Assembly: GCA_947561395.2 (NCBI GenBank)
Contig: OX387183.1
Coordinates: 10,281,402 to 10,345,401, forward strand
From: Buxus sempervirens
Taxonomy: Eukaryota; Streptophyta; Magnoliopsida; Buxales; Buxaceae
Direction: 5' to 3'
DNA length: 64,000 bases
Shown: positions 2,217-62,728 of the stretch, piece by piece
How positions within the stretch are numbered: the first letter of the stretch is position 1
How the letters are laid out: every line of letters starts with the position of its first letter
Made by a program: the position numbers and the translations under genes
The notes under the pieces: model-generated
What the model was told of the DNA's origin: nothing
What the model saw: only the letters and a program-made list of their open reading frames with translations
Databases searched by the model: none

Positions 2217-2980
2217 GGGAAAATTTCGAATACGCCCGTCTTTTGAAAAATAAAAACAAAAACAGCCGTTGAAAAGTCTTTCCTACCAAATCATGAAACT
2301 TTTAAAAACTATTTACCAAGTGATCCAAAAACACTGTAGCAGATTTCGCATACCCCATTTTGCCCTTCCCTCTTCGTTCGAAAAAAGCCCTGTCGTTCTC
2401 AAAGAACGATTAAGCGCGAAACCCTTTGGAACATTGAAGCTTCCCTGAGCGACGGCAACCCATCATCCCGGCGTGAGTATCGACCATTGGCGCTTGCGAT
2501 TGAGAAGGTTTGAAAGCCATTGTAACCCCTCTCATCTCTACCATCTCACGGATTGATCTGGTTCGTTTGGGGCTTGCTTTTGTCGAGCGAAGAAGAAAAG
2601 GGCCGTGGAGAGTTTCAATCTCAAGGTTAGTCGCAGCACATTTATTTCGTGGAGGAATCACTTCAAGGTATGAACCGATTTTCCCTAAGCATAATCTTTT
2701 GTGAAACGTTTTTCTCCTAATCCGTGAGTGATGGATGTATTTGGGTTTCCTACACCATGTGAAAGTGACGAAGAACATTTGGATTACATTCATTGGAATC
2801 GCCTGAAGCTCATCGCTTTATTGATCGATGTGTTCGGGTAGAAGGCGATTAATCGAACAATGAACACATTGTTCATCCAATAAATCGAATACAAGTCGAT
2901 TAATCGAGTAATGAACTTATAGTTCAATGTTATTTGGTGTGTTTTTCGTAATGCTGTGTTTAGATGTTTATGGGTAGCAT
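2217..2980 (+). repeat. Left terminal inverted repeat of the MULE
   Basis: The outer 170 bp are nearly identical to the inverted right end. The middle (about 2410-2750) is diverged but keeps shared blocks such as AAAGGGCCGT and AAGGTATGAACC. The inner part (about 2780-2980) again matches closely and holds two CGATTAATCG palindromes at 2846 and 2897. The repeat is therefore about 760 bp and bipartite. Confidence 0.85.
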
Positions 2981-3815
2981 TTGGATTACATTCGTTTAGT
3001 CTCTGAATCGATGCCTTTGAAATGGGGGTTGCTCAATAGTTCGATTAATCGAAATATGAGCAATCATCTCAATTTTCAATATGCTGTTTGTATTGCTCTT
3101 GAAATTTCAAAAATTTGAGTTCCTTGAATGGTTGAGTGAACACGCCTATTTTATTTGTATTGTTATATGACAGGTGTTTTATTTTGCTGCATTTGCCATT
3201 ATATTTAATTCTCTGGAAATAACATTTCTTGAATGGAAAATATCTCTAGGTGTAAAATTCCAATGCAACTTATGCATTAAGAATTAAAAAAATGCAGGAA
3301 AACAATTGTAGAGCTTAGAGTTTGACGACATTTCCAAAGATCTTGGGCATAGGGAAGATCATGAAATTGTGGTGAAATTTCCTAAATTCAGGGAAGCTAC
3401 TACCTATGTGTTGATGAATTTTTGAGAATGTTCTGTGTTTTGGCAATATACATCATTGTCAAATATGAAGGACTAGAGTTCTTCTTGACTCATTGCTTAG
3501 AAAAAAATTAGAAAAATCATTGTTTCTTCTCATTTTGTCAAACTTTTGCATTCCTCTGTTTCCTCATTTTCACCCTAGCAAAATAAGGTGTTTTATTTTG
3601 TTGCATTTGCCATTATATTTATTACTCTGGAAATAACACATTTCCAGAGCTTCCTGAAATTGGGTTTACATGTTCACCGCCTTATCGAAGTTGATTAAAG
3701 TGCGCATGATATAGGTTTATATGGGTAGATAATTGATAGCCTAAGTTGTTATTTTGAGTAGTTTATATTAATCATGCATTCGTTCACCTTGTTAACATGT
3801 TGTCTGGAGTGCAGT
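2981..3815. other. MURA 5' leader region
   Basis: Non-coding stretch between the left inverted repeat and the transposase start, with one CGATTAATCG at 3042. Two similar segments (around 3165-3215 and 3585-3640, sharing GGTGTTTTATTTTG) suggest a small internal duplication. A likely 3' splice site (GTGCAG) directly precedes the MURA ATG, so the leader probably contains an intron. Confidence 0.5.
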
Positions 3816-6119
3816 ATGGCTCAACCACCCCCGGAGAAGTCGTTGTTTTGCTACTTGCATATAGGTGGAGAGATAGTTATAGAGCAAGATAAGTCTGTAT
3901 CATATCAGGGGGTCGTTTAGATGGTTTGAATATAAGTGGTAATACACAGTACGATGAATTTGTAAGTGATGTCTGTAGTAAATTTGGGATATCTTCAGTG
4001 GGTTTGTCTATGAAGTACTCTCTTACGTACGATAAGAGTGCTTTACTTCCACTTACTGATCAAGCGGGGTTACTTAACATTATCACCCACAACGAACGTT
4101 CTGCGAATGTGTACTTATTTAACGGTGAAGGGCAATTGCAAAGCGTTCAGTCTTCCAGAAGGTGATTATCACATATTTTGACTTACAAAGTCGTAGTGTT
4201 TGTTATCATACTAGTGTTTTAATACTTAAACTATTTTATTTTCTAGAACGACTAATTTAAGTAGTGAACCGTTGGTTGAACCAATTGTGATCACATTTGT
4301 TGATCGGGGGAGTACAGTTGTTGGGAGTTGTATTGAACACAATAGGGCACCACTTGTGTCTAGCATGTGGCAATCAGAAATTATTGGTGATGGTCAGGTT
4401 TTTAGGAGTGGTGATGAATTCAGGCAAGCTGTCTACAAGCATGCCATTGGCAATAGATTCCGTTATGTGTTCAAGAAAAATAGTCGAGAATATATCTCTG
4501 CCAGATGTTCTGTCGAAGATTGTCCTTGGAAAGTTAACGTAGGTCGTGTGAAACATACGGACTGCATGATGGTGCACAAGTTTGTGAATACACACAAACA
4601 CTCGGCACAAGATGAAGTCTCAGTAAAGCCGATTGTGCGATTGAAGTGGATAGCTGGTGTTATTGAGAAAACAGTAAGAGAGACACCGAATTACTTGCCA
4701 TGACAAATTTCCAAGGACTTTCATAATGATCATGCGATGAATTTAACATACCAGCAATGTTGGAGGAGCAAGGAGAAAGTGAAGAGGAAGATGGATGGAA
4801 ATGTGGAGGACTCGTACAAACTTATTCCATGGATGTGTCAACGCTTGATGGAGTCCAATCCAGGGACGGTGGCTTGGTGTACATCGAGTGATGAGGGGAA
4901 GTTTAAGCAATTGTTCATTGCATACTCTTGTTCGTTGAGAGGATTTGCAGTGGGATGTAGACCTTTACTTTTCATTGACGAGACCCACCTTAGCGGACCA
5001 TATCAAGGAACGTTATTGTCTGCAACAGCTCTCGATGCTGATGATGGTATGTACCAGATAGCTTATGCAATTGTGACTGTTGAGAATAACGAGGATTGGC
5101 TATGGTTCCTCGAACGGGTCAAGTATGCAATTGGAGGTCGAGCCGATGTTGTGATTGTGAGTGATAGGCATCAGAGTATTATCAATGCTGTGGATAGCAC
5201 ATTTGGGTTGCAAAATCATGCTCATTGCTATCGGCATGTGAAAGAAAATTTCAGCAAATTCATTAATCAATTTCATTTAGGCAAAGCGAAGAAGGTGGCT
5301 TTGGGATTATTGGATGATATAGCTTATGCCCGGCTTCCAGAGGATTTTGATATGGCGATGGATGTATTGAAATCATATCCACCTGAAATGTTTGGTTGGG
5401 TGGAGCAAAATGGTCCTCAACATTGGGCAAATTCCTTGTTTTCTAAGAAGCGTTGGGATAAGCTATATTCAAATGTAGCGGAGTCGTTTAATGCTTGGAT
5501 GTTGGAGGAGAGGAAATATCCTATCTTAAGATTCATTGATGCACATAGGGTTAAGTTAACTAAGATGTTGGTAAGGAAGAAGAACGAGATCAGCACATGG
5601 GAGACACCTATCTGTGGTCGCATTGTGAAGAAAATTGAAGAGAATATAGCACGAGGAGTGGGGTTGTCTGTAATGCAATGTGGTGAACATGAATATGAAG
5701 TCAGGCCATGTGATAGAAACATTGCTGTGGATATCTTGAGACGGGAGTGTACATGCAAGCGATGGCAAATGTCCGGCATACCTTGTGAACATGCATGTGC
5801 TGTTTTGCAGAAGAAATCACTAAATTTATATGAGTATGTGGAGTAGTGTTATCACAAGTGTACTCAAGAGCTGATATATGCAAAGTTGATGCATAGTGTA
5901 CCAACACATGACATACCTAATGTTGTGGATATTGATGCGATATCTCTTGCTGACTCATCTGAAACACCAACAAGCATGCTGCCCCCTAAAACAAAGCGAC
6001 GACCTGGGCATCCTCGGCAGAAGCGCATAGAGTCTCAATTCCAAAACAAGCGGCCGGTCCACTGTTCCCGTTGCAATGAGGCAGGACACAATCGAGCTAC
6101 ATGCAGGGCCTCAATCTAG
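3816..6119 (+). pseudogene. MURA-type MULE transposase, degenerate
   Basis: Cut-and-paste DDE transposase of the MULE. Exon 1 starts at ATG 3816 (MAQPPPEKS) with an N-terminal PB1-like region. An intron at 4162-4246 leads into the MuDR DNA-binding domain (about 4390-4610, C..C..H.H). The catalytic domain has FIDETHL (Asp at 4977), VSDRH (Asp at 5163), CYRH (5226-5237) and a candidate Glu in AESFN (5481). A SWIM zinc finger (CTCKRW..CEHAC, about 5748-5795) and a CCHC knuckle (CSRCNEAGHNRATC, about 6060-6102) close the protein. Three lesions break it: a frameshift in the G-run at 3908-3912, TGA at 4701-4703 where CGA would fit, and TAG at 5844-5846. The frame is otherwise continuous to TAG 6117-6119. 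It cannot make a full transposase as it stands. Confidence 0.9.
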
Positions 6120-6552
6120 AGGTTGGTCTTGGATGTAGTTATCATAGAGGTAGCCACTGTTATTTTGTATGATGTAAATCTAATTCCGTCTAGCCAAGTT
6201 ACTTGTGGTAAGTAAGCTTTGTTATTAATAACAATTCTTGTAGGTTCAAGCTGTGTGTGGATGCGTTCCAACCCTTTAAAGTAAGCAAAGCGGAAGGCAA
6301 ACAAATGTTGTATCGTTGAAAACTGCGGATCAATGAATGTTGGTTTGGAGACAGCAGGGAGGATTTGTTGTAGTTAATTGATATTTGGTTGGAGGACAAT
6401 GTTAATTTTTATTTATTATTACTTCTTTATCATTGTTTTATTTGACGATGTGTTGTTGTAATATTAGAACCTTCCTGTGAAATGCGGTTAATTGATTACT
6501 ATGTGTGTTCTTGCACATGCTTTAGCATACAGTTGTTGTATCTTTGTTAGTC

Positions 6553-8539
6553 ATGGACGAAAATGCACCTAGTCATGATGTTGGAGAAGCTTCTACCTCG
6601 GTAGCGAAGGCAAAACGACCTCCAAATCCTTGGGTTCTATTCAAGTAAGGAAACGTGATATTTGTTGCATGTGTTTGATAGACTTATCATAAACAGTTAG
6701 TGTAATAATGCTTGTATTTGATGGATTTATTTTCTTGTATCCCATGTAGGTCTGAGTACATTAAAGAATGCGCAAGGGGTGGAGAACAAATAATGTTAAA
6801 GAAGGTATTTTTCCTGATTAGTTGCAAACAGATTTGACACGCGGTTCATGCCATTGTATAATTTCTTTGTAGGCTAATGACGGTGCCGCAGCAGTGTGGT
6901 GGGATATGGATGCAAAAGCGAGGCGGCCATATCATGAGCGAGCTGCCCAATGCGCAGCTGAATGGAAAACATCTCGGTCTGAAGCACCGAAAAAGAAAGC
7001 TAATCAGGTATATTGTGCCACTTTACCATGCTTCCAATTTACGATTGATCATACAACGAAGCATATATAGTTTATTGTTTTTTTTTTTGGTAAGTCATTA
7101 GTACACGTGATATTGCAGACATGTATGTTCACTCGATGCTCTCCACTGCGATTCGTGGAGTGTTGCAACCGGTTTACGCCAGAACAGCGTTCAGTGGTAG
7201 AAGCCATTGGTTTTGGGTCCCTGCTCCATCTTCACAGCAGGTCCCTTAAGAGAGATTTATGTATTTGGCTTGTTAATCAAGTCGATGTACACAATTGTTG
7301 TCTAAAAATCAGAGAGTACTCCATTCCTATTTCTAGTTTAGATGTCAGTGCCATATTGGGGATTAGTCATGTAGGAGAGCCAGTCAGCACTTCTGGACCA
7401 AATGATAGAGTGGAGGAGGTCCGTAGTATGTTTAAGATTGAGAAGCATGGTATTCCCCTTGCAGAGTTGCAGTCTAGGTTAGCTACCCCTGAGTGTGGCC
7501 CTGATTTTATAAGAGCGTTTGTTTTATTCGCACTGGGTTGTCTTTTGTGCCCAAATGCGAACCTTTGTGCTGGTAGGAGTTTCTTACACACGGTGGTAGA
7601 TGTAAATAGCTTGCCTTCCCTAAATTGGGCAGAGTTTGTTCTTCACCGCCTTATCGAAGAAATCAAAGTAGTTCAGTTGAAGGAAAAGCAATGCATAGGT
7701 GGTTGCATTTTGTTCTTGCAGGTGAGAACTGTTAATTCGAAGTATTCACATTACTTTTGCATTTTGTATATTTTCTGAATATACAAACACATATCCATGA
7801 CGATGGTTCCATTGCTTGGCTTCATCTTTTCCAGTTGTTCTATTATGAGCGTGTTCTTCATGGCCCGCCGAACCCCAATAGACGATTGCCACGTTTGTTG
7901 TTTTGGACAAAAGAGCGTTTGAAGGCACGGGAAACCGCAGAGAGAAAAGCCGGTGGATTCGGCCTCGGACGGGTTTACTTTACTTTACATTGTATATGCT
8001 GGCTCAGGTTGATGCATTATACAACAAGGTGAATTAATTGTGAGCATGTGTTTTGCAGGTAAATTTGGAGGCATTGATGTCTGACACCGGTTTTGGAAGT
8101 TCCACATGCAGAAGCGAATTTCCATCAAAAGCGCAAGTATGGATCCGCTCCCCTCTTCACAATTTTTGACTTATAACGACATTGGAATGTTGTGTTTACT
8201 TATTTTCTGTTGTGTAGTCCACATCGGAACGGTTAAAAGAGGATGTTCCAATTACCCCTGAAGATATGAACTCTGAATTTCCTATTATTGACCCTGTAAG
8301 ATATAGTTCATACCTCGTCTAACCGTTAATCGGCAATTTCCATTCATTACAGTCCTATTGTTGACCCTCTAATGCAACCAACTCTATCATTCTCCTATTT
8401 TCAGGATGTGGCTGGTCGGCTGGTGCACATGCGGAAAGAGTTACAGATAATGAATGATGCATATCGGACAGCCATCAGTGCTGTACGAGATGCATATGGA
8501 AGCCGCGATAGTATAGCTGATAAAGATATAGGTGACTGA
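6553..8539 (+). CDS. Intact MULE accessory protein, HMG-box-like plus mobile-domain-like
   Basis: Eight exons join in phase into 437 aa: 6553-6644, 6750-6804, 6873-7007, 7119-7721, 7835-7972, 8059-8136, 8218-8295, 8405-8539. All junctions are GT-AG and no stop interrupts. Residues 21-85 look like an HMG box: KRPPNPWVLFKSEYI at the front, then VWWDMDAKARRPYHERAA and a Lys-rich end. Residues about 105-330 resemble the domain of plant transposon accessory proteins (plant-mobile-domain or DUF1985-like): GFGSLLHLHSRSLKRDLC, DVSAILGISHVGE, and GGCILFLQ joined to LFYYE across an intron. The tail (394-437) is short, charged and probably helical. It follows MURA on the same strand, 430 bp downstream. 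Exact function is unknown; DNA binding is inferred from the HMG-like part. It stays open while the transposase beside it is broken. Confidence 0.8.
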
Positions 8540-8959
8540 GATGTTATTACATTGGTGAGAGTCTGTAATTGATAAAAGGGGAGGCTAACATGGAAAAGTA
8601 AGAGATGTATGCATGGTTAACAATGTTTTTTGCCAGGTTGTACATTCAAAACAATTAATAAATTGATATTATTTTTTCTCATTCTAACACTCAAATACCT
8701 GAATCAATCCGACAATGAACTCAAAATTCATAGACAACTCAAAATTCATAGACCTCTGACAAAGGAACTAAACATTTGCGAGCGTTAATTACTAAATTGC
8801 TCATCAAAATACTGGTTACTCTAACATTTTGTTATGATTAACCCAAAGTCATCTTATGCAATGCATGATGTGGTGCACCACAGCAAAAAAACCAACCCTC
8901 GAGCTCATCGACAAAATGTAGATGCATCGTAAAATCAATGATTAATCGTTAGTAATAAT
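8540..8959. other. 3' region of the accessory gene
   Basis: AT-rich non-coding stretch after the TGA at 8537-8539. A short direct repeat (ACTCAAAATTCATAGAC, about 8718-8755) is the only structure noticed before the palindrome arrays start. Confidence 0.4.
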
Positions 8960-9530
8960 CGATTAATCGGTTACCATCGGTCGTTATGAGCCCAGTTGTG
9001 CATCGGCAATTATCGATTAATCGGGTGTTCATCCTGAAATTAGTCTCAGGAAAACGACACGCTGGAATTTGAATCGGAACGTGTTCGATTAATCAAAAAA
9101 TCATGATTAGTCGGTCATACGTTACGATTAATCGGTTACCATCGGTCGCTACGAGCCCAGTTGTGCATCGGCAATTATCGATTAATCGGGTGTGCATCCT
9201 GAAATTAGTCTCAGGATGAACACCCCACTGGACTTTGAATCGGAACGTGTCCGATTAATCAACAATTCATGATTCGTCGGTCATACGTTACGATTAATCG
9301 GTTACCATCGGTTGCTATGCGCCCAGTTGTGCATCGGCAATTCTCGATTAATCGGGTGTTCATCCTGAAATTAGTCTCAGGATGAACACCCCGCTGGACT
9401 TTGAATCGGAACGTGTCCGATTAATCAACAATTCATGATTAGTCGGTCATACGTTACGATTAATCGGTTACCATCGGTTGCTATGCGCCCAGTTGTGCAT
9501 CGGCAATTCTCGATGTATCGGGCCTTAGCC
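8960..9530 (+). repeat. 166-bp tandem repeat array with palindromes
   Basis: About 3.4 units starting at 8960, 9125, 9291 and 9457 (periods 165, 166, 166). Each full unit has CGATTAATCG at offset 0 and again at offset 54, and a near copy CGATTAATCA at offset 126-127. The unit also carries CATCCTGAAATTAGTCTCAG. The fourth unit is truncated near 9530, where its second palindrome is mutated. No coding potential. Confidence 0.9.
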
Positions 9531-9689
9531 CAGTTTTTCATCGGCAAGTTTCGATTAATCGAATAGTAATCCTGCAATTTTGCCTCAGAAAACAACAGTC
9601 TGTAATTTGAATCGCCAATTATCGATTAATCGACGAATTTTATTCGAATCGAATTGGGATCTTCATCAAAGATTTAAGAAGCGATTAAC

Positions 9690-10480
9690 CGTTCGTGGGA
9701 TACAATTTTAGAAATCGAAGGATACATTTTATATTCGTGGGATACAATTTCATTATTCGATGGATACTCTTTCTATTCGCGGGATACAATTACTTACTTA
9801 AGGGGATACTTATTTTTAATCGTTGCCAATTCGCGAAGTTCAGATGGTATCCCACGATTACTACACTTATATCCGACGCGTACTTGGGAGAAACTTTCGA
9901 TTAATCGAGAGAATAAATTTCAATTAATGCCCTTCTGGGATACAATTTCATTGTTCGGTGGATACTCTTTCTATTCGTCAGATACCATTACTTACTTCAG
10001 GGGATACTTATTTTTTATCGTTGCCAATTCGCGAAGTTTAGATGGTATCCCACGATTATTACACTTATATCCGACGCGTACTTGGGAGAAACTTTCGATT
10101 AATCGAGAGAATAAATTTCAATTAATGCCCTTCTGGGATACAATTTCATTGTTCGATGGATACTCTTTCTATTCGTGGGATACAATTACTTACTTCAGGG
10201 GATACTTATTTTTTTTCGTTGCCAATTCGCGAAGTTCAGATGGTATCCCACGATTACTACACTTATATCCGACGCGTACTTGGGAGAAACTTTCGATTAA
10301 TCGAGAGAATAAATTTCGATTAATGCCCTTCTGGGATACAATTTCATTGTTCGGTGGATACTCTTTCTATTCGTGGGATACAATTACTTACTTCAGGGGA
10401 TACTTATTTTAAATCGTTGCTAATTCGTGAAGTTCAGATGGTATCCCATGATTACAACACTTATATCTGGGCCGTAATTG
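9690..10480 (+). repeat. 198-bp tandem repeat array with GGATAC motifs
   Basis: Units begin at 9738, 9936, 10134 and 10332, an exact 198-bp period, with a partial lead-in from 9690 and a decaying end near 10480. Each unit holds four GGATAC copies, one inverted GTATCC, and one CGATTAATCG (9898, 10096, 10294). Because 198 is a multiple of three, one frame stays open across the copies (about 9927-10412); it repeats every 66 codons and is not taken as a gene. Scattered GGATAC copies continue to about 10650. Confidence 0.9.
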
Positions 10481-11371
10481 GGGGATATCTTATTAGCATA
10501 GAGGATACAAATATTTCTTCGTAGGACACTCTTTAAGCAATCGAAGGATACTTATAGAGGTTCGTGGGAACAACCCGAAGAAAGGGATGGTATCCTACGA
10601 TTAATCAAGAAGGATATAATTACATCATCGTGGGATACATTTCCGATACGATTGATCGCAAAATTTTCGATAAATCGGAGAAGAGAGAATGACCCATGAA
10701 CGTGATCGATCGATCCTATATTGATTAATTGTAACGATGACGATTAACTACGTGGGGCGTTTGAAATTCAATGATCGGCAACCTATCGACTAATCGTTTA
10801 TTTCTAGGTTGATCGTAAGATAGTCGATTATACCCGTACAATTATCGTTTTGTCACTTAAACAACCGATGAATCATGGGTTTTTGTCGATTAATCGAAAT
10901 TGACGAAACCAAGCGACGCTTTGTTTCGCGCGCATATCTTCCAGGGGATCCCATCTTCCAACTGACGTGACCCTTGCGATTAACTCTCTTACATATTTTC
11001 GATGCGCGTACCAGTCTCATCATCTTCTCATTTGTCATTCCCCATTTCTCATCGTCTTCTCCACCGTCCCTAGGGTTTTTTGCGTCGACTTCTTCTTGGG
11101 AGATAGCGTCAATCGTGCAAGTTCTTCTTCTGGTAAGTGATGCTAAGATTGGACAACTTCTTTGCTCCATTCCATTTCCAATGAACTAAAGATTCGTGTA
11201 CATTGTTTGTTGTTTGTTTCGTTTGTTTTTTTGGGGTTTTGATCTTCTTTCATGCGCCTCTCTCATTTGTGTTGCGCGTTCTTGAATGCTTGGATGATTT
11301 TGTCTGTAATGGCCTTGTGTCTTCCATTGTTGTTCTCGTATGTGCCTTGACGTCTTTGCTTTAAAGGCATC
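10481..11371 (+). promoter_or_regulatory. Upstream and leader region of the second plus-strand MULE gene
   Basis: 10481-10900 is palindrome-variant-rich spacer with one exact CGATTAATCG at 10887. From about 10930 the sequence changes to a C/T-rich leader with CCCTAGGGTTTT near 11070. A good 5' splice site (CTG/GTAAGTG, about 11131) suggests a leader intron ending shortly before the ATG at 11372. No TATA box was identified. Confidence 0.45.
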
Positions 11372-12674
11372 ATGCCCAAACGAAAAACCTTAGGTCGTAA
11401 GGCTAAGAAGGCAAGGACGCCTACCCCTTCTCCTCCCCCTCATGATCTCCCTCCGTCCGGTCAGACTATGACCCAGACGATACTGAGCAGGCTGTAGCTG
11501 GGGCTACGAGTTCGCCTTTGTTGTCTCCAGAACACACACCATCCGCTGCCCTTGGGGGGCATGGGGTACGCGTCAAAAGGTCATTGGTCGTTGAGAAAGC
11601 CGTGCTCAAAGACCAAATTTCGAAATATGGTTTGGAACCACTTCTTAAGAAAATAGGATGGGAGGGTATTTTGGACTGGGGAGGTGATGCAAACATGTCG
11701 GTCGTGTGTCATCTCTATGGGAATGCACGAGTTACAACTCTTGCCAGTGAACCAGATCCTGCATTTACAGTTGATATAAATGGTAAAGCTGTCTTTGTCA
11801 CCCCTGACCGCATCAGTGAATTGATGCACATCCCGCGTAATGAAGTGCGCACATTTGATCCCCCCCTCCAGTCGGACCTTGAGGAGGCAACGCGTTCCCT
11901 CTGTGGGAACGACGCCGAGTGGCACAGAGCCGCCCTTACTGCTAGTAGTATGATGCCAAAGTATAGGGTTCTCCACCACATCTTCACATTTAATGTGTAC
12001 CCGAGGCGTGGTAATAAGTATGACATGACTCCTGCCATGGTGATGCTCCTGTATCGGGTTGTTCAGGGCATTCGAATGTGTCTGCCAACGTTGATTTGCA
12101 AGCACATTTGCCAGTTTATCCTCTCTGCCACTAGAAGTAAAGCAACATCCAATCCTAGAGCTCTTCCTTTCGCTTATCTGATGACCCAACTTGCCAAAAA
12201 ACATGGTCTCCAAGGTCCGGTTGACTCTACTGTCTGTTCAATCCCTCTCTCCAGGACCAACATCCAACTCATGTATTTAGATCCGTTGCCTCATCAGCGT
12301 ACGGACACCGGAAGATCATCAAGCTCTCAGCAGGTGCAGCACCAGAGGGGCCCCGGCTACCATCAACATCATCCATGCCTTCTACATCATCCGTACCAGA
12401 TCTGCAACGTGCACACCGCGGCAGGCGTCGAGGCCCCGGTCATCTGCATGGAGGAGCGTCGACTTCACAACCACAAGCTAATGAATTTGCAGTTTTCAAG
12501 GAGGAGGTCAGACAGGAGCTTGGAGGGTTGAAGTGACTAGTGAAGCGGGTGTTGCGGGTGGTGAGCCACATTTATACCTGCCAGAGTCAACAGGAGCCAT
12601 CGCTACCACCTTTGCCAGAGTCCGATGCAGATGATGATGCAGGTGCTGGTGCAGCAGCAGAGGAGGCTGTGTAG
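11372..12674 (+). pseudogene. Putative plant transposon protein (Transposase_32-like), broken
   Basis: Starts at ATG 11372 with a basic MPKRKTLGRKAKKAR leader. The body (about 11560-12230) resembles the 'putative plant transposon protein' family: LVVEKAVLKDQISKYGLEPL, WGGDANMSVVCHLYGNARV and VFVTPDRISELMHIPRNEV, then an AMVMLLYRVVQGIRMCLPTLI helix-rich part. The tail is Ser/Pro/Arg-rich (GRRRGPGHLHG) and ends in an acidic ESDADDDAGAGAAAEEAV. Continuity needs a one-base frame change near 11455-11465 and another near 12230-12290, and TGA 12534-12536 interrupts the tail before TAG 12672-12674. The function of this family is unknown; it accompanies plant DNA transposons. Introns could explain one shift, but no intron of normal length fits. 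Confidence 0.6.
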
Positions 12675-13795
12675 TTCATGTCAGTGAAGATGTGGGAGAT
12701 GTTTTTTTGGTTATCTTCACTTGTTTAATTCATAACTTGATTTTTTTAACTTTATGAACTTGACTTTTTTAACTTTGATAACTTTATGACTTTTTTTTAT
12801 GTTCCCCCGCATGTAAGCAATATAATGTGGTATGTTTAAATGGGAATATTTGTGTGCTATCAAATGGATCTTTTGTTTATGTTGGTGTCTTTAATTTTAG
12901 TTGGACATTTGTCCATTTGAAATGTTTAAGATTAAGACATCGATGGATCGGAATATACATCGATTTATCGGAACATTAATCGGAATTTGCATGATTAAGG
13001 ATCGCGACTCAAAAAGTACAAATTCGATTCATCGGAAACTAATCTCGATTGATCGTTGAAATATCGATCAATCAGTAAATTATCGATTTAATAAACAGAG
13101 CGCGTCCTTCAGTCTCTTCACCATGCAGGATTAAGCCTCGACTAATCGATTAACGACGATTATCCAATTTGGCCACTGGATGTACATATACGATTAATCG
13201 AAATGATTAACGATTAATCAAAGTAAATCGGATGAATCGCGAAATTGCCGATACGAAATACAGAGTGACCTTTTTCCAGGGGTTTATGCAGGATTAACTA
13301 CCGATTAATCGAATTGACCGTAATATTATTCGATTGATCGTAATATTATTAGATTAATCGGAACTTTGTGATACCCGCTAATGGTCATCTGGAGTATTTC
13401 GATCGATGCACCTACGGTTAATCGGACTTGTTATCGATTGATCAATATTTGTCATGCACTTAATCAAAATAATAACAGGTTAATCGTTTTTTCAGCGATT
13501 AATACAATGCCTTCATTACTTGCTACAGCATGCTTTGAACTGTAAATGCACGTTGAACAAGACATATATAAACACCAAAACTTTCTAAGTACATCAAGTT
13601 CACATCACTCCCAAAAATAAAAAAAACCAAAACATAAAAAAGAATTGGATATTCCTATGAATAAAAAATAACTATACAACCCCAAACATCGCATCACTCC
13701 AAAGAAAGATAACACCAAACATTGTAAAGTACTTTATGTTCCTATGAATACAAAACACTATACAACCCCAAACATGGAAGTGTCTTCTCTAAGCA
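12675..13795. other. Palindrome-rich spacer between convergent MULE genes
   Basis: 12675-12930 is AT-rich 3' sequence of the plus-strand gene. 12940-13510 holds many ATCGATTAATCG-like variants, with exact CGATTAATCG at 13191 and 13302 but no tandem period. 13560-13795 is probably the 3' untranslated part of the minus-strand Ulp1 gene. Confidence 0.5.
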
Positions 13796-15751
13796 TCACC
13801 CAATCTGACGATGCAACACCTTATGCTTTAACCTGTTAGTTGGATCCAACACCAAATCTGCCATCACCTTCTTCCTAAAGTACGGGATATTATCCTGCTT
13901 CATAACAAGTAATGATATTAACTTAGCATCAAACAATCATCTATAGGATAATAAATGCATATGATGTAATTAAGTTCTGGAAAAAGAAAGCATGCTTGTC
14001 CAGATTGAGGGTTTAGCACATGCCCATCCCAAAACTCCATAAACTTCAACACAAAAACACCACAATCAAACCTACATCACAAGTTCGGGGTAAACAAAAC
14101 ATAAACGTATTAGAACAGTGTAGAACATCAATCATCCACAAAGACATTATCTTACCCGTTCTTTTGATGAGGCACTGATGCATACTCCCTATCCCATGAT
14201 GGAATCCCAAACGGTCTTGCGTGGACAAATGTCTCAAATAAGTCCTCAAAAAATTTTGCCTGCCAAATTAAAATATCTTGCACTATAATCTAAGTCAAAC
14301 ACTTCCACGACAACATAGAAGGATGCTTAGCAAATATAAATTACAAATTAACAATGGAAACGCAAACCTACAAGTTTATTGACCGCCTCCCCTTGCAAAC
14401 CTTGTCTAGAACTACTATCCGAGTCCAACAATTCAAATCTTTTTCCTTTCACATTCAATACTACAAGGAACCAATGGTTCCTTTGGCATACTGGTAGAAA
14501 AATCTACATAAAACATTAACTATTAATTACGAGGAGAAGCCTAATCTAAACATGTGATTGGAAGAACTTGCAAAAATTACTGAGAGAAGAACATTATAAG
14601 ACAACATGTTTTTTATTTCCATAAAAAAATATACTTAATTTACCATTTCACATTCACAGAGGAGAAACCCAATTGTTTTCAGAGAGAAGTACTTCTTATA
14701 CATCGTATCAATCTCCTCTTTGCCGTTTATGATTATATCCTATGATTTACAATAGAATTAGAAACGCATATGCATACCTTATTACACAAATTTAATGCAA
14801 GCTAGAATAGTCAAATATGCTTACAGTGACAACGGGAGAACAATAATGCTTTCTGACTCCTGATGAATATAAACCTTGTCGGTTGATAAGGCAAATAGCA
14901 TATGCTGCTATTACCTATATTACATAATACATAATAGATATAACCGTTAATATGATTGTCGAATTAACTAGCTATACAATGAGATAAAACTAACATACTA
15001 TGCTGCCGACCCAACATCCATCTGCCAAGCAAAGCATCTCTTCCACTGTAACATGTATTCCAATGTAATCCACAACAACCAAGCTACACAATAATAAGAA
15101 ATTCATGTCACAATCGAAACACTACATCGAGGGAAAACTAATTGTGTTTTCCGTCGATCTGGCACACAAATATAAGCATCTCCACACATTAACTTCATGT
15201 TCTCTCATAAACAATATATATAAAGAATTACTTACTTTTTTGGACGCAATTCATTTACATATTTGACAACCCGCTTTTCATTAGGCTTCAACGGAGGGAA
15301 TTTGTGTTGGACAACGAACGGCGAACACAAATTTTTGGGTTTTTTAATCATTCGCTTGAATTTACTTGAAGAAACAACCTTCGGTTTTGGTGACGCGATC
15401 ACATCAGCAACTTCCATTGGTGACCCTTGCTCATCACCAACAGCTTCAACCGGTGATGGTGATCGTCTCAACTCATGGGCTAAATTCGGGTGTTCACCAT
15501 GGGTTGGTGTGTCTCCGCGTCTCTGGAGGTACAACTTCAATTCCGTGCAATGACGCTGCATCTCCTGAGCAGCAGCTGCCATCCGATCCATTTGTTCTTG
15601 TAATATCTGTATCAATAATCAAGTGTTAAAATTAGATTCATCATTCAAGTGTGAATATAGAATACTAGTTAACCACCTCACAACTTTGTGCTTTCTCCCA
15701 CCGAGATAGATTGCCAGGCAATCCATCCGTGCTTCTGTCATTTCTTGCCAT
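13796..15751 (-). CDS. Ulp1/C48 SUMO-protease-like protein of the MULE, intact
   Basis: Ten exons join in phase into 386 aa: 15751-15677, 15606-15236, 15158-15126, 15083-14999, 14914-14825, 14739-14644, 14503-14372, 14259-14156, 14071-13996, 13894-13796. The N-terminal third is a Gln-rich helical stretch followed by a basic SKFKRMIKKPK segment. The protease core has VIAAYAICLINRQG, NHWFLVVLNVKGKRFELLDS (His260, Asp277) and HQKNGFDCGVFVLKFMEFW (Gln326, Cys332), so all catalytic residues of family C48 are present. C48 enzymes cut SUMO from its precursor or from conjugates, usually in the nucleus. All introns are GT-AG except the last, which starts GC (13995-13994). The ATG at 15751 is chosen because the first exon then has exactly 25 codons and splices in phase. 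The actual substrate is unknown. Confidence 0.87.
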
Positions 15752-16246
15752 GTGTGTATTGGATAACTCCGTCTTCTTTAAGGCTTACCTACATTTCATT
15801 CACCAATTTCAAAAATTTGTTTTCCTCAATTTTCAGAATAACCATCGCATTAATAATAGATAAAATAGCCGTGTCGAGTTAACCATTCAAAGCACTTAAA
15901 CTTTTTATAAATATTTCATAATTATGAACAACACACCAAATAACATTGAACAATAGGTTAACTAACCCATTAATGGAACTATTACAATCTTATTTTACAA
16001 TGACCAACTTGACCATTTCATTGTTAGATAAAGCCTAAATTACCTAGCCATGATATTGGTTAAATAACCCTACACTTATATTTCTCTTAAATGACATATA
16101 GTTTAATATTTCCAATTTCTAGGATTTTGTCAGCTAAAGTGGCCTTGTTATGCCTTCTAACTCATAAATTTTAAACAAATGTATTTAATTTTTTTTTTAA
16201 ACTTCGACATCATCTCTCTTACCCATTAAGAGTCTTAAGAGTCAAC
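15752..16246. other. Upstream region of the Ulp1-like gene
   Basis: AT-rich stretch between the Ulp1 start and the right inverted repeat. It probably holds the promoter and leader. No clear TATA box or further coding exon was identified. Confidence 0.4.
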
Positions 16247-17000
16247 ATGCTACCCACAAACATCTTTATACTAAACACAGCATTACGAAAAACACACCAA
16301 ATAACATTGAACAATAAGTTCATTAATCGATTAATCGACTTGTACTCGATTTATTGGATGAACAATGTGTTCATTGTTCGATTAATCGCCTTCTAGTCGA
16401 ACACATCGATCAATAAAGCGATGAGTTTCAGGCGATTCCAATGAATGGTTTTGAGGAAAACCGATTAGGGAAAATCGTTGATAACCATAACCAAAAACGA
16501 TTAGCCACAATAGGTTCATACCTTGAGGAGATTCGTCCAAAACCCCTACCAATGCAAACGTTCCACTGCTGAGTTTCGTCAAAACCCTCTACGGCCCTTT
16601 CCTTCCCCAAAAAACGCAAGCTAAACCAGGGCCATGGACATGGGGTTTCGAGATTTTACTGTATATTCCTTCAACCGAACATGCTTCGAGGTTTCAACGT
16701 TCCACTCGAGATGGGGTTTCAAGAGGGGCTTCAGTCAACCGGAGAAAGCTTCGCCGTCGAGATAGGGTTCCCACCTTCGCTGCTCGCTCGACGCTTCAGA
16801 GAACCAGGGTTTCAATCGAACGAAGAGGGAAGATCGAACGAAGAGGGAAGGGCAAAATGGGGTATGCAAAATCTGCTACAGTGTTTTTGGACCACTTGGT
16901 AAATAGTTTTTAAAAGTTGCATGATTTGGTAGGAAAGACTTTTCAACGGCTGTTTTTGTATTTACTTTTCAAAAGACGGACGTATATGAAATTTAGAGGA
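16247..17000 (-). repeat. Right terminal inverted repeat of the MULE
   Basis: Reverse complement of the left repeat. It carries the matching pair of palindromes at 16328 and 16379, with the same 51-bp spacing as the left pair. The outer 160 bp are about 95% identical to the left end by eye. Confidence 0.85.
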
Positions 17001-37600: not shown

Positions 37601-40600
37601 GGAACCCTCCACTGCTAGAAACAATCTCCAAAAGACGCGGGCAATACCCACGGAATATCAATCATTTGAAGAAGGCGGCTCCACACTCCCCCAGTAAAAT
37701 GACAATGAAGAAAAATGTGATCAATACTTTCCCCTGCCTCCCTGCACAGAAAACACATATTGGGAGATAAAACATACCTTTTTCACCTTCTCTGTAACAT
37801 ATCTGTAGTATTTATCCTGTATGAAAGAGCAGTCCAGAGCAATGCCTTTATTTTTTGGGGCACCCTAGGTTTCCATAATTTTGAAACCAGAAAAGCTGCA
37901 AATGGGGAAGAGAGATCCGGGCGGTGAGTGGAAAAAAAGGATTTGCAAGAAAAAACCCCAGAGGGAGACGGGGTCCAAATGACCCTATCCCTGGAAGCAG
38001 AGTGAATAAAGCAATCTTTGAGGGAATCAACTAAAGAGGCTAAATCCTCAACTTCATGGGATCGTAGCTCTCTTATAAATAACAAGTTCCACGATAGGCC
38101 GTCACTAGACCAAGCCAAGATGTCGGAAACAACAGCATTAGGAAAGCTGGCCACATAGAATAGAGATGGAAATGAATTAGCTAAAGGAGAACCCCCCCAC
38201 CATAGATCATGCCAAAACAGAACAGAAGATCTAGAGCCAATACAGAGACAAATGTGGGAAAAGAAAGAGTCTCCCAGTTTGATCACAGCCTTCCATGGGC
38301 ATGTACCCGTAGGCCGGGCCCTTATATTAATAGTCCACCAATTAACCCCTCTTCCATATTTGTTAGTTATCACTTGGTACCATAGGCTTTCTTGATCAAA
38401 GCTATACAGCCACAACCACTTAGCCAAAAGAGATGAGTTACGAGAGGCTAAATTTCCAATGTCCACCCCACCCTTGACCTTTTCCTTACAAAATGTTTTC
38501 CACTCAATCAAATGCACCTTCCTTTCCCTTCCTCCTTCCCACAAAAAGTCCCTCCGAATTTTCTCAAGTGTATCTACTACTCTTTTAGGCATCCTAAAAA
38601 GGGACATGTAATACACTGGTAGGTTAGCCAGAACAGCTTTTATTAATGTGATTCTACCCCCCAAAGATAAGTAGTTAGCCTTCCACCTAGCCATTCTTTT
38701 CCACTCTTTCAATGACCGGTTCCCAAAAAACTCACAGATCTAGGAGATGCACCAAGAGGCAAACCAAGGTAAGATATAGGAAGGGCACCTACCTGACAAC
38801 CGAGCACTCTACTAAGGTCTAGAGTAATTGGCTCCTCAATGTTGAGGCCAACCAGCATACTTTTTGGCCAATTAACCTTCAAGCCCGATATCATATGAAA
38901 AGTTTGCAGGATGCTCTTCAACCATAGAACTTGGTCCCTAGATGCCTCTAGGAACACCATAATATCATCCGCAAACTGGAGATGAGATACTACAAGAGCA
39001 TCTCTTCCAATCGTGAATCTGTGGAACAGACCTCTAGCCACTACACTGTCCAAGAAACAATGCAACACACCCGCCACTAACGAGAACAGAAAAGGGGACA
39101 AAGGGTCCCTTTGCCGCAAGCCCCTAGAAGACTCAAATAGACCAACCACTGACCCATTCAGCAAGAAAGAAAATTGAACTTAAACATCCCATGATCCACT
39201 TTCTCCATCTTATTCCAAACCCTTTCCACTCCATTATAGCATCCAAAAAGTTCCATTCCACTTTATCAAAGGCTTTCTCTAAATCCAGTTTGCTTATTAC
39301 TTCCGGAAGACCTAATCGACGTTGAGCATCTACACATTCATTGGCAATAAGAGAACAGTCCATAATTTGCCTCCCCTCAATGAAAGCACTTTGGGTAGGA
39401 CCAATGATATTAGGAATCACCTTCCTCAATATACAAGATAGAACTTTGGCAATGATCTTATATAAACTAGTTGTAAGGCTAATGGGTCTAAAATCCTTAA
39501 TACCCACCGCTCCGGGTTTCTTGGGTATTAACACTAAAAAGGTTGCATTCGTAATCTTGTGCACAATCCCTCCAGAAAAGAATTCCCCAAAAACCTTCAT
39601 GAGTTGATCTTTGATAGTCGCTCAATTCATTTTATAAAAAGATATTGTGAAACCATCTGGGCCTAGGGCTTTATCTCCGTCCATTTCCCAAATTGCTTCT
39701 CTAATTTCTTCCGCCTCAAATTCTCTCTCTAGCCACTCTTTTTCCATTGCATTAACCCTTGATTGACCACTATCTTTCAACAGGCATTTAAACTCTTGTT
39801 CCGACCTATACAAGTCAGAATAAAATTCTACCAAGCAGTCTCCAATCTCCTCCATATTCTTGACCATCCTACCTTCTATCTCCAATCTAAGAATGCTATT
39901 TTTGCGATTTCTTCCATTTGCCACTCTATGGAAAAAATAGGAGTTCCCGTCTCCCTCCTTCAGCCATGACACCCTTGATTTTTGCCTCCAAGATATTTCC
40001 TCAAATCTTAGGATATCCTGTAATTTTTCTTTTATCTCAATCCTTCTCGCTCTATCTTCCTGGTTCCACGGACCACTCCCCTCCTTGATATCAAGTCTCT
40101 CTAATTCCTCTAAGGCTTCTTTTTTCTTGCTTTCAAGTCTCCCAAAAGAGTCTTTGTTCCATCTTTTGATACTTTTTTTTGTCTCCCTCAAACTCTGCAT
40201 GAAAATAAAATCTGCCCACCCCACCATTCCATCCATCCCTTGCCTCCACCAATCTTTAAACAAATTTTGGAAATCCGGGCGCTCTAACCACATATTCTCA
40301 AAACGGAAAGGGGCTGGACCATTCCTGATGTTTTCATTAGATAGCAACAAGGGGCTGTGATTTGATGTGGGCCTAGGGAGCAAAAACTGGGTCGAGGAGA
40401 TGAAGTGATCATCCCAACTACCGGATGCTAGGCATCTATCTAACCTAGAGCAAAGGGGGGGGATCCTGGAAATTCGTCCATGTGAATGATCCTCCCGCCA
40501 GAGGATAGTCTATAAGTTCACTATATTGAATCCAGTTGGAAAAGTCCCTCATGCTCCTAGTTACTCTTGGCTGAACTTTATTGGTTTCATGACAGTACCT

Positions 40601-43600
40601 GTAAACATTAAAATCCCCTAACACCACCAAAGGGCTACCCGAACCTGGATATCTTTGCCTCAATTCCTCCCAGAAGCTCTCCCTTCCCCTAGCTCTACAG
40701 GGACCATAGACAGCGGATAGAAGCCATGAAAAGCCGTCTACCCTTGAAATGAACTGAATGGACACTGAAAATTCCCCTGTTTGAATAGATGCCCCTTGTA
40801 AAGCAATGGAGTCCCACATTACCACTATACCACCTGATCTACCCATTGATGGTAGACTTGCCCATTCAATTCCACTCACATTCCATAACCTCCTAATCAA
40901 ACCAGCGTCTATATCCTGAATTTTTGAGTCAACTAGCACAACTACTTCCGGATGCCATCGACTACAAAGATCTCTCACCGCCCTTCGCTTTTCAACCCCC
41001 CCAAGGCCTTTAATATTCCAGGTCACAATCTTCATGGTTCACCTGCAACATCCTTTCCTAACCTACTACAAAAACTATCAACCATCTCTCCTACCGACAC
41101 TCTTTCCCCTTTTAGATTGACTGATTTCTCAATAACCGATTCTGAGAACAGTTTAACCTTATTCCAAAAGCAAGATTCCTCTTCTACTTCACCTCTGTTT
41201 TGAACCCCCTCATTGGCTAAAACAAGCTCTCGCCTTTCATCACAGGCCAAGCTTAGTGGCGGCATAGCATTCAATGCATTAAACCCAGTCCCAAGATCAA
41301 CCCCGTCAACAGAAGAAGAGGGTAATAAGAGACTATTAATAAAAGGGCCTTGCTTAGGACACGTACTTGGGGATGACTAATGACGTACTGATGGAGATTT
41401 AGGGATGATGGTTGGATTCGCAGGACAGAAACAAGGGGACGCAGCTACAAAAGTAGATGATGCCCCCAAAAATTCCGGCGAAGATCTCCTTCCTTCTTCC
41501 CCAAGATACCTACCGATGAACAGAGGAGAGGAATCAGTAGTTTTTGCACCCTTAATGCTTCTGCGAGAGTAGACCTTCAGCTGCTCCTGAGATAAATCGC
41601 CCCTATTATCGCCAACGACCTGTTTCAGCTTCTTGGTTTGCTGTAAAACCGAAGCCTTCATCTCCTTCTACGAATCTGACTGCCCCAGCTTCTCAGCGAA
41701 ATGATCTTCCCTCCTACCATTGCTGAGCCCATCCTCCCTGGCGACCTCCACTCTCTCTTTCATTAGTCGACCAACTATTTCTTCAACCCATTGTTCAATT
41801 TGATTCTTCAACCCATTTGACGATTGATCCAACTTCTTCTTACCTTCGCTTCCTTCAAAGGGTAGTGTGTGATGCTTATAGACATTAGGAGGAACGCTAC
41901 CTTCATCCAAGGTCTGCACCCCCACCGTCGCCGGCGACCCTTCGACGAAGTCTTCCAGACCAAGATTGTCTTCGTTCGAAGGAAGACGAGGCGAGAGAGA
42001 CAAGTCTCCCCCGCCTGGGTCTCACTGGATAGGATCGACTGGGCCCATCTCCTTAAGGCCCAAAGGGTAGAAGTGTCGACTAGGCCTGCTTGGGCCTGCC
42101 TGGGCCTCCCTGAATATCGTCAATTGAGCCCTCCCTAACTAGCGTCACCTAGGCCTCCCCACTAATATTTCGCCACTTGGGCATGGGAAAAGCATTAAAC
42201 TTTCCCCCACTTGGGACTTTATTACATAATTGGGCTTTTAGAAACCAAAAGCATGTGGTTTTTTAGGCCTATCAAGCCATTTTGATGAACCTTTTAGAGC
42301 CCACACAGACCCATAATCAAAGCCCAAAGGGATCCATAAAAATAAAAAAATTTGGAAAAGCTAAGCTTTATTGATCTCTCAGATCAGTACACAAAAAGTA
42401 TTCTGCACTGATCACCCATTGAGATAAGTACAGAGAAGAAATTGTCTATACCAATCTAAGATGAAGGTATAGCCTACAAAAATTCCACAATGGGTTCAAG
42501 CAAACCCAAACCCTTCTAAACCCAACCAGAATTAAACCAAGATAATCTTGGTCAAAACCAAATCTTCCACATAGACTTGGATCCAGTCCTAAAGCTCAAA
42601 GAGACATGTTGGCTTATGCAATTTTTAGAGTAAACATGAAATCCAACCTAAACCAAATCTAAGGGAACCTGCCGCCCTGTGGGATGACTTGGTGAATCTA
42701 TGGACTTCCTCAAGTCATTACCGAGTCACTTAGCCAAGACTATGGGCAGACCAAACAGGAATGGGTGACAGTTCGCACCCTTAACCCAATGAGCAATAGT
42801 GATTTCAAAATAAACTGAAACCTGGCTAAGTAAACATAAGCCCACCAAACTAGAATTGAAAATCTTTGCTAGTCGTCGCAACACCTCACGTGCGCTGACG
42901 AGATGTGCACATAGTACAAACCCTTTGAAATCTATTTCCACTAGCCTCCTTTCGCTCATACTTAGACTAAAGATATTCTCTAATAAAAGCTCAGTATGAA
43001 GCCTTATATACCTCAGTCAATACATCATAATGGTAAACCACGTTGTCATCAAAATCCTTTGCATCAGGTGGTGGTCGTACAAGCTTCACTAGCATAAGTC
43101 TGATATCATTAATGTTGCCTCCTCATTGCCTACTTAAAAATTCCAGCCCACGGATGCTCTCTCATCTACATCTTCACCTCTGGATGCACTCATGGATAAT
43201 CTGCCACATTCTTGAATCCATGTACAATCCACCACCCTTAAGAACTTGGTGGAAATGTCAAATAATAACTTGTTTTTGTCCTTCCTGATATCTGGTCCCA
43301 TGGCCCCAACCTATATTTGCCATCTAACCATGTTGATCACCTCCACATCCACTGCCATATACCATATTGCTAATCTAGTACTCAGAACTCAGAAAACAAC
43401 TCACACAATGACAAGAAGTCTATAAAGACTTTCACAACATGCAACAACTTCGTAATACAAACATCAATCATTTATTTTTTATTATATATTCACAAATTTT
43501 ACTTGATCATTTTGAACAGTCCTTTATCTTTATAGAATGCAAGCTAACATATACACCTAATTAGTGAACATATCCTAGATACTTATTTCTAACGATTCAA

Positions 43601-56476: not shown

Positions 56477-58076
56477 ATATCTTTACTGTTTGCAATATAC
56501 CAGCCACTTCCTTTTTCTATCCATTCATCCATGTTATGCATTTGATACCACCTGAATGAGTTCTTTTGATGGAAGGATGCCTGAACAAAATCATCATGAG
56601 GGAAGTATGTATCCTTAATCAGGTTGTTCCACAAACTCATGTCTTCCTTCATCAATTTCCATGCAGCTTTAAGGATCAAAGCATTGTTCATTTGGCTCAT
56701 ATATCCTCTTAATATTTAAACCTCCATTACACCAAGGTGAGGCAATCTTCTCCCAATAGATCGTGTGCATGGCCTGCCAGTCATATTTTTTCCTCCAGAA
56801 AAACTTCCACACCATGCTGTCCATTTTTTTGGTTGTTTCTTGTGGAAGTGAAAAACAACTCATGAAATACAATGGTTGAGCATTTAGAACAGAATTAATT
56901 AAGACTACCCTCCCCATTTGCAATAACACCAAGTCTTTCCACCCAGTGAGTCTGTTTGCAGTCATATTCAATAATTCCTCACAATCCTCAGCCGTCGGCT
57001 TTCTTTGGAAAACTGGAATCCCAAGATACTTTTCTTGCTGCTTTGTCTCATGAATCCCCATCATTTGGCAAAACTTGGGATCTCTTTAGATTATTGGTAT
57101 CATCACTAAAAAACAAAGAAAATTTTTCCATGTTAATCAATTGACCAGATTCACAGCAATATTTATGCAAAAGTCTAACGTTGTGCTGTGCCTCTCTTTC
57201 TGAAGACTGACAATAAATTAGCACACCATCAGTGTACATAAGGTGGCTTAAAGATAAGCCACCTCTCTTTAAACAGACCCCTGAAATTCGCCCATTTGTT
57301 TCCGCACGACTAATAGCTAAAGAAAGGACTTGTTGACATAAAATAAAGAGATAGGGTGAAAGGGGATCACCTTGTCGCACACCACATTCCGCAGGGAAGT
57401 GCCCCACCGGTCTACCATTAAATAAAACACTAAAAGTAGCAGAGGTGACACATTTCATTACCAACTCAACCACAAAATTTGAGAAGCCATGAGCAAGAAG
57501 GACTGATCTGAGAAAATGCCAACTTAGTTGATCACAAGCCTTGGTGAAATTCAGCTTAATCACGACTTTACTTTTATCCAGGGGCCAATGCTTGATCGCT
57601 TTTGATCTCTACTTCTTCTTTTTTTGTTTTTTTTTATGGTTTGCTCTAAAGCAGTGAGCAATTTCATGATGGATCAAAACATTTTCACGGATGGAACGAC
57701 TAGGCACAAAAGCAGTTTGATATGGACAAATAATGTCAGATAACAGAGGTCTAATTTTAAAGCACCCAAATTTTTGAAATGATTTTGTACAAAAAATTGC
57801 AAAGACTTATGGGACGCAAATTATTGAAAGTTCTATGATGCTGTGTTTTGGGAATGAGAGAAAATAAAGGTATGATTTAAATCTTGAGGTAGGAAACTAG
57901 ACCTGAAAAACTCTTGGACAGTTTGAATCACTTCCGTACCAACAATATCCCAATAAGTCTTATAAAAGAGACCTTGAAATCCATTAGTACCAGGTGCCTT
58001 CAGAGATCCCATCGATTGAACAACATTCCATATTTCCAAAAGGGTGGGGATTTGACTTATCGCCAAATCTTGATAG

Positions 58077-61700: not shown

Positions 61701-62250
61701 TGATCCGAACTGTTCCAACCCCAACAATTTTACAAGCTATGTTATTTCCCATCAAAGCTGTACCACCATTCACTGATTGATATGTCGTGAACCAATCTTT
61801 GTTGAGACACATATGGTGGGAACAACCCGAATCAAGAATCCATTCTCCATCCGAGCGTACACTGTTGACAATAACTGTGAGAACATTTTCAGAACCATCT
61901 GAATTTTCTTCAACATTACCAGCAACTTCCTTAGCCTTCCTCTCTTTAAGCTTTGGACAGTCTCTCTTAAAGTGTCCAGGCTTGTGACAGAAATGACATT
62001 TATATTTTCTAGACTTAGAATTTGATCTAGATTTATCTCTGTCACCATTAAAACCTTTCTCTTTCGTTCTACCTCTCACCATCAAACCCTCAGCCTGATC
62101 CTCACTCCCATTCCCAGATACCTTTTTTCTTAATTCTCGAGAATGCAAGGATCCCTTAACATCCTCCATAGAAATCGTATCTTTTCCATAGAGTAAGGTA
62201 GTGACAAAATGTTCATAAGATGGAGGTAACGAACACAACACTATAAGAGC
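58747..62250 (-). CDS. Copia gag C-terminus and pol polyprotein
   Basis: About 1160 open codons after the nonsense codon. In order: end of gag with zinc knuckle [14 protein letters not shown], protease [15 protein letters not shown]-pre-integrase [14 protein letters not shown], integrase ([53 protein letters not shown]), reverse transcriptase ([31 protein letters not shown]) and RNase H ([40 protein letters not shown]). All these hallmarks are intact. Translation of this part from gag would need read-through of the TAG at 62251. Confidence 0.93.
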
Positions 62251-62682
62251 CTAATCCTCATCATCAATTTTTACATCAATATTTCTCAGATCCATAATAA
62301 TCTTATTAAATTCATCAAGGTGATCTGTAATAGACATACCTTCTCGCATCCGAAGAGTATAGAGGCGTTGTTTCAAATACAACCTGTTCGTGAGAGATTT
62401 GGTCATATACAGGCTCTCCAGCTTGAGCCACAACTCAGGCGCACTCTCTTCGTCTGCAACCTCCCGTAACACCTCATCGCTCAAGCACAACAGAATCGCA
62501 CTGTGAGCCTTTTCCATCAGATCATCCTTCTCACCATCCGACATCGTTGCAGGTAGAGAATCTCTACCTTTAAGAGCTTTACCTAACCCCTGTTGAACCA
62601 ATAGAGCACGCATCTTCAATCGCCATAAACTGAAGCTATTCTGCCCATTAAATTTCTCCACTTCATACTTCGTAGCTGCCAT
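62251..62682 (-). CDS. Copia gag, N-terminal part
   Basis: 143 codons from ATG 62682 ([20 protein letters not shown]) to TAG 62253-62251. It is the UBN2-type gag domain ([14 protein letters not shown] and [19 protein letters not shown]). The stop is in frame with the pol reading that follows directly. A CAG to TAG change would explain it. Gag is therefore cut short before its zinc knuckle. Confidence 0.9.
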
Positions 62683-62728
62683 ATCAGAAAACCCCAAAAT
62701 CTGAGCAACCTTAGCTCCGATACCAGTT

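Follow-up and report, generated by a model that had tools for sequence, protein, structure and literature searches.

A Mutator-like element (MULE) extending approximately from position 2221 to 16994 (about 14.8 kb) of the window, i.e. the whole 64-kb stretch of Buxus sempervirens DNA that was analysed (contig OX387183.1, positions 10,281,402 to 10,345,401), carries in its non-coding DNA a family-specific 10-bp palindrome, CGATTAATCG, and a second array built on GGATACA. Besides a MURA transposase and a Ulp1-like protease, the element encodes two candidate DNA-binding proteins, namely a Transposase_32 protein (PF20167, from here on T32) and a protein that combines a high-mobility group (HMG) box with a plant mobile domain (PMD), indicated as HMG-PMD. 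The layout of the CGATTAATCG system resembles that of the VANC proteins, which exert anti-silencing on VANDAL elements (Sasaki 2023, PMC10398659), and this resemblance is well supported. The reading that we favour, tentatively and at somewhat less than an even chance, is that CGATTAATCG is the cis recognition site of a regulator encoded by the family itself, most likely T32, that GGATACA is the target of HMG-PMD, and that activation or anti-silencing of the element follows.

Distribution of the palindrome in the window and in the genome

CGATTAATCG is found 20 times as an exact copy in the window, always between 2846 and 16388, against 0.09 copies expected by chance, and none of 100 shuffles reaches this number. 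By allowing one mismatch the count rises to 38 (1.08 expected), every one of them within the MULE. CGATTAATCG is also the most frequent 10-bp palindrome of the window, the runner-up being ATATATATAT with 11 copies. The copies lie at both ends of the element, in the interval between the HMG-PMD and T32 genes and in the one where the T32 and Ulp1 genes converge, and 0 of 20 overlap an assigned exon or open reading frame (ORF), with the Ulp1 gene mapped in pieces only. A 161-aa mechanical ORF (9927-10412), which spans two copies from within a tandem array, was not counted as a gene. Both the confinement of the motif to the transposon and its restriction to non-coding DNA, as described in the initial annotation, are therefore upheld.

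The figure of about 20 repeats, correct for exact copies, is not a figure for independent sites. Eight copies (8960-9552) are part of a 166-bp tandem unit or of a relative of it, and repeat and motif mapping placed the corresponding array on the plus strand at 8888-9550, with up to two exact copies per unit. Three more (9898, 10096 and 10294) belong to the 198-bp unit of a plus-strand GGATAC array (9698-10638), which contains one CGATTAATCG per unit. Four copies form the mirrored pairs with 51-bp spacing noticed initially (2846/2897 and 16328/16379); the pairs are real, but they do not represent independent events, because they lie in inner inverted repeats (2787-2963, plus strand, 177 nt, 97% complementary to 16271-16447 on the minus strand) that double a single one. 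By collapsing the 11 array-derived and the four mirrored copies we arrive at about 10 separate contexts. The flanks of five sites (3042, 9623, 10887, 13191 and 13302) resemble those of no other site; among them, the lone copy at 3042-3051 lies 5' of the MURA gene and that at 10887-10896 lies 5' of the T32 gene, both on the plus strand.

A regular spacing is observed in a dispersed cluster at 12921-13520 (600 bp, plus strand), where 17 CGATTAATCG-like sites with up to two mismatches form eight pairs 19-22 bp apart versus 1.78 expected; none of 20000 random placements reaches eight. The second motif is spaced in a similar range: between 9600 and 10700 there are 20 GGATAC on the plus and five on the minus strand, thus mostly in one direction, with many steps of 20 or 22 bp.

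The genome was searched over 676.5 Mb in 247 contigs, and the family of the window element is indicated as family A. There are 2484 copies of CGATTAATCG, as opposed to 238 of a control consisting of the same letters reversed. The 50 places listed are those in the first 8.8 Mb of contig C1; six of them are solitary, and each of the other 44 lies no more than 5 kb from another copy. Relatives of the inner repeat were scored at 40 genome places out of 166 candidates (identity, 93-100%). An exact CGATTAATCG is present at 26 of 30 family-A end loci and at all 30 T32 loci, the window's own among them, so that the motif is both enriched genome-wide and recurrent in family members. Six family-A copies compared over the array, including that of the window, contain 8-13 exact CGATTAATCG and 19-32 plus-strand GGATAC, with varying unit numbers.

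Both motif types are also found in a derivative with no internal ORF of 80 aa or longer (L090:1527-2854; C1:7657527-7658854). This 1.33-kb element has family-A-like ends (78-82% identity), six exact and six one-mismatch CGATTAATCG, and GGGATAC units in both directions. It is partly built as an inverted repeat. The derivative has multiplied: a first look gave 426 candidates, and 12 of the 40 scored (L090 included) cover at least 1299 of the 1328 query bases with 89-100% identity. The presence of both motif types in a multiplied gene-less element suggests that they act in cis; as an alternative, they would merely ride along with the ends.

Taken together, these features bear on the possibility that CGATTAATCG is a functionless by-product of tandem duplication, to which we give very little credence. 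It would agree with 11 of the 20 exact copies lying within, or deriving from, the two tandem arrays and with a conservation among copies that is no stronger than in the surroundings, but it does not explain the unrelated flanks, the approximately 20-bp phasing in the 600-bp cluster, the retention in the gene-less derivative and the occurrence of the core of the motif in another transposon (see below).

According to the reading that we favour, T32 would bind CGATTAATCG, perhaps as a dimer since the site is palindromic, with adjacent sites spaced about two helical turns (19-22 bp), and HMG-PMD would bind the second array, where GGATACA recurs mostly at 20-22-bp steps. Binding at the non-coding stretches (ends, gene borders and arrays) may then activate the genes of the element, clear or block silencing marks, or do both, as proposed here by analogy with VANC, and the regulators could act in trans on gene-less derivatives.

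Proteins and motifs in the sister families

Relatives of the element were assigned by us to families A-G on the basis of identity, and the proximity of T32 and HMG-PMD was evaluated for 142 of 150 PMD and 118 of 124 T32 matches, with partial second pieces omitted. Among the matches listed, a T32 no more than 15 kb from HMG-PMD is present in 43 of 52 family-A copies and in none of 90 from other families (40 B, 15 D, 26 E, five F and four G), a PMD is near none of 60 places with a C-type T32, and family A is the only one seen with both proteins. Among the families read, both motifs are found only in family A and in its gene-less derivative.

Family B has HMG-PMD, pieces of Ulp1 and a MURA 68% identical to that of family A over 369 aa. 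T32 was not found and CGATTAATCG is absent, even at one mismatch, in one copy read over 20 kb. Four family-B copies contain instead 38-50 GGACTCGAG each, in a single direction and mostly at 21- or 22-bp steps, and no exact CGATTAATCG. Identity between families A and B is lower for Ulp1 (48%) and PMD (46%) than for MURA, and lowest in the HMG region (29% over 59 aa), a pattern that fits a DNA-binding part tracking a changing motif.

That CGATTAATCG is the binding site of the MURA transposase, also considered in the initial annotation, is a weak explanation, to which we assign a slim chance. The CGATTAATCG pairs in both inner inverted repeats could be read in this way, and maize MURA likewise causes hypomethylation of terminal repeats (PMC10398659). 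However, the family-B copy is free of the motif in spite of the similarity of its MURA, the outermost 161-bp repeats of the window element hold no exact copy, the inner ones account for only four of 20 with the remaining 16 outside, and family C, with another type of transposase, has sites of the same core.

In family D, represented by one copy of 5.1 kb (L091, C14:1449801-1454900), an HMG-PMD exon with 64% identity is followed by an array with 144 GGATAC on one strand versus seven on the other, 136 of 143 steps being exactly 22 bp. The array, approximately 3 kb long, repeats a 22-bp GGATACA unit in near-perfect phase and has an observed/expected (o/e) CpG ratio of 0.1-0.3. GGATACA is thus common to families A and D. 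Within this copy neither T32, nor a CGATTAATCG-like site with up to one mismatch, nor an ORF of 70 aa or longer was found.

Families B and D are those that speak against HMG-PMD as the protein that binds CGATTAATCG, an idea that we consider improbable. It derives from the stop-free HMG-box protein encoded beside the arrays, and it formed part of the initial proposal of an independent, VANC-like system. The rest of that proposal is sustained by the family-specific non-coding motif, by the copy-variable arrays and by the different motifs of sister families; the HMG-like protein as the reader is not, since it is present in B and D, whose stretches read here are free of CGATTAATCG even at one mismatch, and it accompanies the GGATACA or GGACTCGAG arrays, with GGATACA shared by A and D.

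Family C has the opposite composition. Its T32 relative is 48% identical to that of family A, with an open frame and 52.0 bits versus a cut-off of 45, and its transposase, also in an open frame, is a FAR1-type MULE transposase that differs from the MURA of family A; HMG-PMD was not found in the 10 kb read. In the same 10 kb, eight sites within one mismatch of CGATTAATCG share the core GATTAATC (0.20 expected; 0 of 200 shuffles), three lying 5' of T32 and five 5' of the transposase. In nine further copies the three T32-side sites are all kept (9/9), and the five transposase-side sites are kept in seven copies, two of them in one and none in one. Families A and C could be aligned, at the sensitivity used, within T32 only. 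Family C further contains a dense array of its own, of GGTACC/ACATGTGTACA (L071:1-2700).

The distribution of the core also bears on the possibility that the reader of CGATTAATCG is a host transcription factor, in which case the element would have gathered sites to borrow host activation or would be silenced through them. The core GATTAATC is homeodomain- or GARP-like in appearance. A host factor would be consistent with the location of CGATTAATCG sites at the ends and between or beside genes, and with a core common to two transposons with different transposases. We regard it nevertheless as unlikely, though deserving serious attention, as the two gene-bearing families with the core are the two with T32, families B and D have HMG-PMD and lack the core where read, and solitary CGATTAATCG sites are only six of the 50 places listed.

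The simplest account of the modules swapped among the families read would be that of two pairs of protein and motif, in which T32 goes with the GATTAATC core and HMG-PMD with a GGATACA-type array.

Several observations weigh against T32 as the reader of CGATTAATCG and HMG-PMD as that of GGATACA, or reduce the value of the data in their favour. The link to T32 is based on two families (A and C), given that the C copies are near-identical and hence not independent; family C was read over 10 kb, short of its ends, and its densest array is that of GGTACC (41 in 10 kb), which T32 could bind instead. Family D is known from its single 5.1-kb copy, and the divergence of the HMG region from one A/B pair over 59 aa. 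The genome scans scored 119 of 1218 candidates for T32 and 150 of 675 for PMD, so that diverged relatives may escape. A family-E copy (L092) was set aside as uninformative: its 4.2 kb, with no array, motif or noticed T32-like ORF, are in our judgement apparently occupied by unrelated DNA. T32 and PMD as members of one superfamily were rejected (hhalign probability, 0.3%), homology between them being undetectable with this method.

Nor is the motif clearly better conserved among family-A copies than its surroundings. Non-CpG substitution was 0.007-0.044 in the motif versus 0.016-0.058 for the non-CpG columns outside it in these alignments, and CpG substitution was similar in the motif (0.042-0.075) and at other CpG (0.036-0.094). 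Such conservation was rejected as a proof of selection, with copies too young and an effect too weak. Finally, the CpG o/e values of the two arrays of the window element are 1.73 and 2.19 (1.27 and 1.23 after masking motif-like sites; right flank, 0.44), and an excess is also present in the family-B arrays. Its interpretation as a footprint of past hypomethylation was set aside by taking into account the low value of the family-D array.

Organization of the window element

The MULE is delimited by outer terminal inverted repeats of 161 nt (2221-2381 on the plus strand and 16834-16994 on the minus strand), which are 95% complementary to each other; no convincing direct repeat that could be the 8-11-bp target-site duplication of a MULE was found at its ends. 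The MURA region (4248-6118, plus strand), with an in-frame stop near 4701, includes the DBD_Tnp_Mut (PF03108, 55.4 bits) and MULE (PF10551, 66.2 bits) domains, on which the assignment to MULEs is based, and a SWIM finger (PF04434, 38.1 bits). A candidate extra zinc finger scores under the cut-off.

HMG-PMD is predicted as a stop-free protein of 437 aa from eight inferred exons (6553-8539, plus strand). Its own profile scores are under the cut-offs (PMD, PF10536, 31.7 bits versus 34.9; HMG_box, 17.1 bits versus 25.4), but among its homologues are proteins in which the HMG and PMD domains are clear. The PMD exon of family B scores above the cut-off (42.2 bits), and the cotton homologue P0001 does so for HMG_box (33.1 bits), with PMD below it (32.8 bits). 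Of 222 matching proteins, 120 were listed (P0001, P0008-P0124), and most of these carry an HMG box, a PMD and a SINA-type zinc finger. They come from many flowering plants (cotton, cacao, peach, walnut, tea, coffee, Salvia and others). This domain combination apparently belongs to a host gene akin to that of the transposon HMG-PMD; the host protein may have been domesticated from a transposon or may have given rise to the transposon one.

The T32 gene (11372-12674, plus strand) contains an ORF (11518-12531) that scores 74.9 bits versus a cut-off of 45. Beyond approximately residue 279 of the ORF its frame leaves that of most genome copies, so that the window copy is probably damaged. Looking up T32 and PMD among solved structures yielded no useful result. 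The Ulp1-like protease gene (Peptidase_C48; 13799-15741, minus strand) is in pieces, which when joined score 46.6 bits for PF02902. Elsewhere in the window, reverse transcriptase-like ORFs (two stretches similar to long interspersed nuclear elements) and a long copia-like polyprotein ORF were recognized by eye from the ORF list at 37783-41035, 56669-57563 and 58747-62697.

Relation to known transposon systems

VANDAL elements are described as combining a conserved transposase with a VANC that varies and tandem targets that change (Hosaka 2017, PMC5735166). The window system shares with them a short, family-specific motif that is dense in non-coding DNA, copy-variable tandem repeats and the MULE background (PMC5735166, PMC10398659), as well as related families with other motifs and a candidate binding protein that is less conserved than the transposase. 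Some differences are evident. CGATTAATCG is palindromic and hence orientation-free, and the VANDAL motif forms a one-direction YAGTATTAY array; the inverted repeats of the window MULE are long (161 nt, 95%, and 177 nt, 97%) and not degenerate; and in the window MULE there are two motifs, with T32 and HMG-PMD as the two candidate proteins. A Pfam search of the window's MULE proteins detected no DUF1985, which is the domain of VANC, and the match of the family-B PMD exon to it is insignificant (E=0.18, 12.2 bits versus a cut-off of 35.1). Thus, the window system may work like VANDAL/VANC, but it is not to be classed as a member.

TnpA of Spm recognizes subterminal repeats. The sites of the window element differ in being also internal, and its transposase is not their likely reader. 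A point in common with TnpA and maize MURA is that a transposon protein is tied to the demethylation of its own element (PMC10398659).

MULEs with a Ulp1-like protease beside the transposase, as in the window element, include Kaonashi and relatives in melon, rice and grapevine (PMC13317346). The window element adds HMG-PMD, T32 and the motif arrays; the accessible portion of PMC13317346 mentions neither T32 nor HMG-PMD, and motifs only for VANC. An additional ORF of the Athila retrotransposon, predicted to be nuclear and of unknown function, has a partial Transposase_32 match (PMC11728184) and therefore PF20167 in common with the window T32; however, its host is a long terminal repeat retrotransposon, and no target motif is described in the available part of that source. 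No report returned by a literature search names, in its accessible text, a motif targeted by T32 or HMG-PMD, the HMG results being dominated by unrelated work, nor any element pairing PMD with Mutator or Ulp1, or HMG with PMD.

A further-reaching proposal, which we find possible but doubtful, is that T32 constitutes a second class of sequence-specific anti-silencing proteins encoded by transposons, and the window element a MULE with two self-recognition modules that were gained, lost and swapped between lineages. If this were true, sequence-specific anti-silencing would be a strategy that recurs beyond VANC, with exchangeable protein/motif modules derived from other proteins, and both T32 and the transposon HMG-PMD proteins would be given a function. 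The origin of new DNA-binding specificities could then be tested among sibling families of one genome, and the motifs would provide new short tags for targeted epigenome work.

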